A stretch of 64,000 nucleotides of DNA. It comes from Synechococcus sp. 1G10. Lineage in GTDB: Bacteria; Cyanobacteriota; Cyanobacteriia; PCC-6307; Cyanobiaceae. A program made the position numbers and the translations under genes. A model generated the notes under the pieces. The model searched no databases. It had not been told where the DNA came from and saw nothing but the letters and a program-made list of their open reading frames with translations. The stretch is taken from NCBI RefSeq assembly GCF_002252625.1, contig NZ_NQKW01000003.1, positions 124,001 to 188,000 on the forward strand, given 5' to 3'. Of this stretch, positions 8,345-9,921 are shown piece after piece. Each line of letters opens with the position of its first letter. Within the stretch, counting starts at the first letter, position 1.

Positions 8345-9283
8345 TCAATGAACGCCGGATGTCTTGAGGTCGTTAAGGAAGCTGCGCACCACCTGCCCCA
8401 CAGCTTCTCCGTTCTGGTCCACACGGGCATTCAGCTGCTGCATTGTCTGGGCGTTGAGTTTTCCCTCAAGACTGCCAATGGCGCGGCCGATCTCCGGGTG
8501 ACGCCGAAGGCTGGCGCCATTGACCACGGGCACAGCCTCGTAGGGCGGAAAGTAGTGGCGGTCGTCCACCAGGGCCGTGAGCCTGAGACTGGGGATCAGG
8601 CCATTGGTGGAATCGCCGGCGATCAGATCAACCTGAGCATCGGCCAGAGCGCGATAAGTCAGACCCAGGTCCATCGAGACCGGGCGCTTTGCAAAACGCA
8701 GGCCATAGCTGCTGGCCAGGCCCTTGTAGCCATCGGGCCTGTTCAGAAATTCATAGCCGAATCCAGCTCTCCAGCCTGGGGTGTGGACGGCCGCCTGAGA
8801 GATCGTGGTCAGCTTGAGATGCCGAGCGGTCTCCTGACGCACCAGCACTGCAAACGTATTTTCGAAACCCAGTGATGGGAACACCTCCAGATCGAAGCGG
8901 TCCCGGTAGAGCCGTCGGGTCCGCTCCCACACCGTCCTCGCCTCATGTACGGGCGGTTGCTGCAGGATCGTCATCCAGGCGGTGCCGGTGTATTCCACGT
9001 AAGCGGCGATGCGACCGCTGCGGACAGCCTCCTGGCAGATCGCCGTTCCCCCCAGGCTGAACTGCCTGTCCACCTGCAGGCTGCTGTGGCGCTCAATCTG
9101 CTGAGCGAGCAACTCCCCCAGCAGGATCTGCTCGGTGAAACTCTTGGATCCGATCGTGATCCGCCCGGCCGCTTCGGGGCCAACGGAGAAGGGTGCAAAC
9201 CCCAGCCAGGTAGCTGCCACCAGAGCAACCAAAATGCCCCCAGGCCGGCAGCCAGCCAGGAGCGGCGACGTCCCCATCCCCAT
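8345..9283 (-). CDS. Osmoprotectant (glycine betaine/choline) ABC transporter, substrate-binding part
   Basis: OpuAC/OpuBC-type binding domain, 312 residues as read. Diagnostic segments: [20 protein letters not shown] (~42-61), [63 protein letters not shown] and FPPYEAVPVV. The ATG at 9283 gives a plausible signal or membrane segment ([20 protein letters not shown]). However, the reading frame lies within the 3' end of the upstream permease frame with ~300 bases of overlap and stays open further upstream. A single permease-binding-protein fusion broken by a frameshift is more likely than two independent genes. No matching ATPase gene adjoins. Confidence 0.8.
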   Translation of the reverse strand: MGMGTSPLLAGCRPGGILVALVAATWLGFAPFSVGPEAAGRITIGSKSFTEQILLGELLAQQIERHSSLQVDRQFSLGGTAICQEAVRSGRIAAYVEYTGTAWMTILQQPPVHEARTVWERTRRLYRDRFDLEVFPSLGFENTFAVLVRQETARHLKLTTISQAAVHTPGWRAGFGYEFLNRPDGYKGLASSYGLRFAKRPVSMDLGLTYRALADAQVDLIAGDSTNGLIPSLRLTALVDDRHYFPPYEAVPVVNGASLRRHPEIGRAIGSLEGKLNAQTMQQLNARVDQNGEAVGQVVRSFLNDLKTSGVH

Positions 9284-9921
9284 GGCTTCAGCGGCCAGCG
9301 CCGTGGCGTGCGTCCCTGCAACAGGCCGATGGCGGTATCCGCGGCGAGGGCCAGCAGCGCAGCTGGAATTGCCCCCGCCAGGATCAGGCCATTGTTCACC
9401 GTGGCCAGCCCGCGGAAGATGAACACGCCGAGCCCGCCTCCACCGATCGCGGCGGCGATCGTGGCGACCCCAACGCTGATCACTGTGGCCACCCGGATCC
9501 CGGCCACGATCACCGGGAGGGCCAGGGGCAGCTCCACGTGGCGCAGCACCTCTCCCTTGCTGAGACCCAGGGCCTGGCCGGCTTCGCGCAGGCCCGGGGG
9601 TACTCCGGCCAGGCCCGTCACGATGGAGCGCAGCAGGGGCAGGAGCGCGTAGAGCACCAGCGCCACCACAGCCGGCACGGGCCCGATGCCCCCCAGAACG
9701 GGCACCGTGATCAGCAGGCCGAAGATCGCCAGGCTGGGGATCGTCTGGATCATTCCCGCCAGGGCCAGCGCCGGGCCTGACCAGCGAGGGCGCGACTGAA
9801 TCCAGAGGCCGGCAGGCAGGCTGATGGCCAGGGCCACAGCCATGGCCAGGCCCACCAGCAGCAGGTGTTCGCCGGTGCGTTGCAGGATCTCCGCGATCAG
9901 ATCCCTGCTGGGGGCGGCCAT
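8971..9921 (-). CDS. Osmoprotectant ABC transporter permease part (probably frameshifted fusion)
   Basis: ProW/OpuBB-type permease: five to six membrane helices, [16 protein letters not shown], the docking loop [28 protein letters not shown] and [16 protein letters not shown] at 9921 is preferred over 9978. Homology fades at about nt 9240, after one further helix ([15 protein letters not shown]); the remaining ~90 residues as read are Arg/Ser/Trp-rich and look like an off-frame reading of the binding-protein domain. That pattern is what a one-base shift in a permease-binding-protein fusion of ~520 residues would give. A run of five C on the plus strand at 9237-9241 is a candidate site. Confidence 0.75.

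Follow-up and report, generated by a model that had tools for sequence, protein, structure and literature searches.

In importers of the OpuB/OpuC type, the permease and the binding protein are encoded by separate genes. A different arrangement is that of OpuF, reportedly described by Teichmann in 2018, and of EgtUBC. PMC9732360 describes EgtUB and EgtUC of S. pneumoniae as one fused chain and cites OpuF, which PMC6207618 cites as well. The locus that we analyzed in Synechococcus sp. 1G10 is related to both arrangements. As in OpuF and EgtUBC, the gene of its relatives has a transmembrane domain (TMD) followed by an OpuAC-type substrate-binding domain (SBD) in one chain, which agrees with the first-pass annotation that a permease-binding-domain fusion would be a known architecture (OpuF/EgtUBC type). 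In 1G10, however, the two domains lie in different frames as sequenced, and an OpuCA/EgtUA-like ATPase was found neither adjacent to them nor elsewhere in the genome. The substrate-binding protein (SBP) family is common to this locus and the OpuB/OpuC-type importers, but in 1G10 the genes go back to a fusion gene, and their overlap has neither a proper stop nor a proper start signal.

Bacterial pseudogenes that arose by a recent frameshift show a one-base homopolymer contraction, an otherwise intact gene and a retained signature of purifying selection. The gene of 1G10 is alike in all these respects, with nothing notable that differs. The likeliest account is an ordinary mutation of recent date, possibly a sequencing slip, in a gene of a known kind, rather than a new mechanism. 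The frameshift itself carries little weight beyond correct annotation; automatic calls here would give a pair of proteins that overlap, and probably neither is a true product.

Permease and binding domain occupy two overlapping reading frames

The window, the whole 64,000-nucleotide stretch analyzed, spans positions 124001 to 188000 of C13, the contig holding the broken gene, in a genome (G000) of 3.34 Mb and 84 contigs. Its relevant features are as follows (window coordinates).

8971-9978, minus strand: permease ORF, GTG start at 9978, internal ATG at 9921
9242-9921, minus strand: permease (TMD) half, BPD_transp_1, in the ORF from ATG 9921 (alternative GTG 9978)
9281-9283, minus strand: first ATG of the SBP frame, which would need internal initiation
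9237-9241, minus strand: frameshift site, five G on the gene strand (CCCCC on the plus strand), from alignment with relatives
8345-9283, minus strand: SBP ORF, OpuAC-type, from the ORF listing
8345-9236, minus strand: substrate-binding half, -1 frame, with the mature domain from near 9160 (OpuAC match)
8971-9236, minus strand: last part of the permease ORF, about 88 residues read out of frame, stop at 8971 (from the ORF and fused relatives)
4182-8276, plus strand: ABC operon (SBP_bac_3 binding protein, two permeases, ATPase), convergent with the broken gene
3686-4113, minus strand: TrkH-family cation transporter remnant, only fragments left

Both parts of a fused TMD-SBD importer are present. 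The permease ORF matches BPD_transp_1 (PF00528) over residues 54 to 222 (1.6e-17) and holds a cytoplasmic coupling loop, a 24-letter stretch that we take, by eye, to be EAA-like. The SBP ORF matches OpuAC (PF04069) over residues 41 to 304 (8.3e-50); among PDB entries it matches OpuCC/OpuBC (1.3e-43) and also EgtUC, and it has a single match within its own genome. The best NCBIfam matches, every one under the cut-off, were choline/betaine-type permeases and OsmF. A continuous frame through both domains is absent from the window and present in the relatives.

The SBP frame is offset by -1 from the permease frame, and the two ORFs overlap. The permease frame had been said to run about 300 bases into the binding domain; this is right for the distance from the first ATG of the SBP ORF to the permease stop (about 310 nt), but the stop lies about 190 nt beyond the start of the mature domain near 9160. 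Over 8971 to 9236, the fused relatives use the permease frame to read the binding domain. A 334-codon open off-frame across the region also occurs in two relatives with the fused gene, and the openness of the off-frame is therefore uninformative by itself.

Relatives carry a single fused gene

The nearest named SBP homologues are those of Synechococcus sp. Cruz-7E5, J7-Johnson and WH 5701, which marks the genome as one of Synechococcus/Cyanobium type. In the two nearest relatives, the fused gene matches permease residues 1 to 247 with its first part at 95 to 96% identity, and it matches the SBP half at 93 to 94%. By tblastn of each half, both halves fall in one frame in eight further loci (L002-L009). 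The same-genus relatives have the gene in 6 of 8 cases, fused in 6/6 carriers, and an SBP match is absent from the other 2 of the 8.

In a sample of 400 genomes of the family, 52 (own genome counted) carried the SBP at E <= 1e-60, and the loci of 30 of these carriers were examined. A single open frame was found in 28 of the 30; the other two are the 1G10 locus itself (L001) and L161, which is cut by a contig edge. Of the 28, 27 were called by script and one is L006, a single 529-codon frame in which the permease alignment merely begins upstream of the ORF. An in-frame TGA had been flagged in three family genomes; on checking, no stop lay inside the aligned SBP. Two overlapping frames were seen in 0/28 uncut relatives among the 30 family loci, and so the finding that the first-pass annotation had set as its refutation, relatives with the same overlapping frames, did not occur; its claim of one fused gene split by a frameshift was borne out by these comparisons (6/6 same-genus carriers, 28/30 family loci). 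Separately, G042 has a homologue (L013/L025) whose binding domain is split over two frames near residue 205, which is an independent frameshift or an assembly error.

We also compared a wider set, the best 80 of 381 relatives, of which 79 were assessable (L037 is without a permease). In this set the gene is fused in 32/79 loci and split into separate cistrons in 47/79. The permease of the 47 separate loci stops 71 to 1917 nt (median 134) before the mature SBP, while in 1G10 it stops about 190 nt past the start of that domain. The idea that the overlapping frames are an old shared arrangement was therefore rejected, as the permease ends before the mature SBP in 47/47 non-fused loci. With the whole permease ORF as tblastn query, some acidobacterial loci at first seemed to match along the out-of-frame tail as well; because the permease ends 71 to 1917 nt before the mature SBP, we took this similarity as an off-frame shadow of conserved DNA.

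One base differs at the junction, and both halves are constrained

In a DNA alignment of nine loci, the junction run of 1G10 reads CCTGGGGG, where the two nearest relatives read CCTGGGGGG. The gap in 1G10 is one base in the G run, six G in the two nearest relatives against five at 9237 to 9241, and it is specific to 1G10 against two close relatives and unique among the relatives examined; more distant relatives have other, in-frame sequence at the junction. The join had been placed beforehand at exactly this position, the five C of the plus strand.

To describe selection on the gene, changed codons were counted per branch in the unrooted trio of 1G10, G002 and G001, with the halves treated apart and no base added. 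For the permease, the synonymous/nonsynonymous counts were 15/2 on the 1G10 branch, 13/4 on that of G002 and 9/5 on that of G001; for the SBP, they were 18/7, 18/5 and 17/7, respectively. Pairwise dN/dS of the permease was 0.09 to 0.14 for pairs including 1G10 and 0.11 to 0.16 between the relatives, and the corresponding values of the SBP were 0.14 to 0.23 and 0.14 to 0.21. Both halves have been under normal purifying selection for most of the 1G10 branch; therefore, the base loss is either recent or not real.

A recent true mutation is the favored origin of the frameshift

We consider it probable that the fused importer gene was broken by the recent, true loss of one base, an ordinary frameshift. 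In the close relatives, one gene encodes an importer subunit whose ABC permease domain is joined by a hydrophobic segment to an OpuAC-type binding domain, and 1G10 lacks one base of the G run close to where the domains are fused. Ribosomes that begin at the permease start would then leave the binding-domain frame, add about 88 unrelated residues and stop at 8971. With a true mutation rather than an assembly error, we infer that function would be abolished or strongly reduced and that the transporter is dispensable, the latter because 2 of the 8 same-genus relatives are without an SBP match.

The quality of the assembly bears directly on this reading. From 1G10 we took 217 kb of C13 and 260 kb of C59, and the sequence set beside them amounted to at most 540 kb of G002 and 117 kb of G001. 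The limits of the split-gene scan were loosened, since tighter overlap limits missed the broken gene with G002 genes as queries, and splits up to residue 38, of which six were on C59 and one, from a G001 query, on C13, were excluded as start-site miscalls. Interior frameshift splits were found in 4/297 assessed G002 genes in 1G10 (4/137 on C13, 0/160 on C59) and in 1/293 in the reverse comparison (0/140 and 1/153, respectively), a difference that is not significant (Fisher p = 0.37). Among G001 genes, 1/78 was split in 1G10, namely the broken importer gene, against 0/78 in reverse, and 0/82 were split in G002. Genes with interior stops were left out of the argument (G002 genes: three in C13 of 1G10 and two in reverse, one in C59 and none in reverse; G001 genes: three in C13 of 1G10 and none in reverse, four in G002). 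In addition, we scanned 1390 aligned coding homopolymer runs of at least 5 bases between 1G10 and G002, of which 4 were flagged for a frame-changing difference. Apart from the importer site, the flagged runs lie within 80 nt of a called gene start, and one of them, on C59, is itself a run-length difference (C10 versus C6). The importer G run is thus the only one of the 1390 that changes length away from a gene start. As 1386 runs were unflagged and the other three are near starts, the compared parts of the assembly are not prone to in-gene homopolymer error.

These controls must be set against a competing explanation, an isolated sequencing or assembly error, with an intact fused gene in the living cell. 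Errors of this kind classically fall in homopolymers, full constraint is apparent in both halves, no further damage to the importer gene was seen, and the absence of relaxed selection is what an error predicts as well. Moreover, the excess of interior splits in 1G10 falls short of significance, and the C10/C6 run near the C59 gene start is itself a run-length difference. It is the 1386 unflagged coding runs of 1390, with the other three flagged ones within 80 nt of called starts, and the unlikeness of the other disruptions on the contig to typical sequencing-error types that make an error unlikely, although it has to be taken seriously. A real mutation thus appears the likelier of the two, because the coding homopolymers agree with the relative and the contig holds other genuine-looking disruptions. 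Of the three causes offered in the first-pass annotation, recent mutation is favored after about 480 kb of controls, sequencing error less so, and programmed frameshifting is unsupported.

The last of these causes, in which the fusion would be produced at the G run by programmed -1 ribosomal frameshifting or by slippage during transcription, has a negligible chance of being correct in our judgment. Although a GGG codon within GGGGG could re-pair in the -1 frame on inspection of the sequence, the 0-frame codons CTG GGG GCA form no X_XXY_YYZ heptamer by eye, and in a pseudoknot-free model the 126 nt that begin at the site show no better folding than shuffled sequence (z = +0.59; 140/200 shuffles were as good or better). 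With five G, the run is also short for slippage. The two-frame arrangement recurs in none of the 28 uncut relatives, which need no recoding because their intact gene is one frame. With motif, structure and conservation all against it, programmed frameshifting was rejected. A functional split, with a real mutation leaving permease and SBP as separate proteins, the SBP made from ATG 9283 and its hydrophobic segment used as signal or membrane anchor, we regard as very unlikely. Separate cistrons do occur in 47/79 wider-set loci (best 80 of 381 relatives), and the SBP frame has an ATG ahead of the hydrophobic stretch. However, no Shine-Dalgarno-like sequence lies within 30 nt upstream of ATG 9283, a point to be read with the weak Shine-Dalgarno sequences common in cyanobacteria in mind. 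The permease stop is not near this ATG but about 310 nt further on, and therefore a coupled restart is not expected. Furthermore, the permease of the separate loci ends 71 nt or more ahead of the mature domain, not about 190 nt past its start. More specifically, a fused importer that is reverting to a two-protein system, with an internal start, a free SBP with signal or anchor and a borrowed ATPase, is a scenario that we hold to be highly improbable.

The ATPase of the fused importer

Which ATPase drives the fused importer is a more testable question than the frameshift. On the genome of 1G10, a proV model gave 0 matches above the cut-off. The best ATPase candidate there (41% identity) lies on contig C83 beside an opposite-strand permease gene and carries a TOBE domain; we read it as sulfate-type.

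Further searches used the ATPase adjoining a Chroococcus homologue as query. In the wider set (best 80 of 381 relatives), 50/80 loci, the query locus counted, had a match of at least 53.6% identity, typically directly upstream of the permease, in acidobacterial, other and some cyanobacterial loci. Seven loci (L027-L033) had only matches of 35 to 36%, which are the convergent amino-acid-type ATPase, and 23/80 had no match; these 23 include the remaining Synechococcus/Cyanobium-type loci as well as four fused Nostoc/Anabaena loci (L062, L064, L070, L076). In a motif scan of 26 loci (L027-L049, L051, L054, L055), the sole cassettes were the convergent ATPase in L027-L033, an additional one in L033, and that of Chroococcus in L046. 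An OpuCA-like ATPase was thus not found beside L027-L045, L047-L049, L051, L054, L055, L062, L064, L070 and L076; we call the ATPase-less loci cyanobacterial-type, with L049 titled as a Bifidobacterium MAG. The ATPase of the operon at 4182 to 8276 is the one adjoining the importer in L027-L033.

The same picture was obtained across the family. In 24 family genomes with every candidate scored, the best match had at most 45% identity, and an OpuCA-like ATPase was found in 0/400 family genomes at E <= 1e-55 among the matches listed (about six candidates scored per listed genome). As a positive control, the Chroococcus ATPase query gave 60 to 65% matches in three genomes of the class. It looks as if the fused importer is orphaned of a dedicated ATPase in this family, and it probably uses a shared one, because no dedicated ATPase was found and the coupling loop is present.

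Other disruptions on the contig

Three other genes make up, with the importer gene, the four interior splits on C13; they were named from Pfam matches on the G002 copies. A 7-bp tandem duplication breaks a response-regulator gene, a 4-bp tandem duplication breaks a sulfate-permease-family gene with a STAS domain, and a PIN-domain ORF has 35 bp missing. These three sites lie outside the window, near contig positions 71270, 79418 and 212150, and the genes are open in G002 and G004. The SulP-type gene has an N-terminal split besides the interior one.

Within the window, the TrkH-family gene around 3686 to 4113 survives as a remnant. It encodes 488 aa in G001 and G002 and is also present in G004; the 1G10 copy is missing about 1.03 kb internally and has a 2-bp duplication in its N-terminal part. 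If the mutation in the importer gene is real, it joins these C13 disruptions, including the TrkH-type gene about 4 kb off, which would hint that selection on the uptake of ions and osmolytes is relaxed in this strain. A second TrkH-family copy, of 480 codons, lies at C13:94463-95905.
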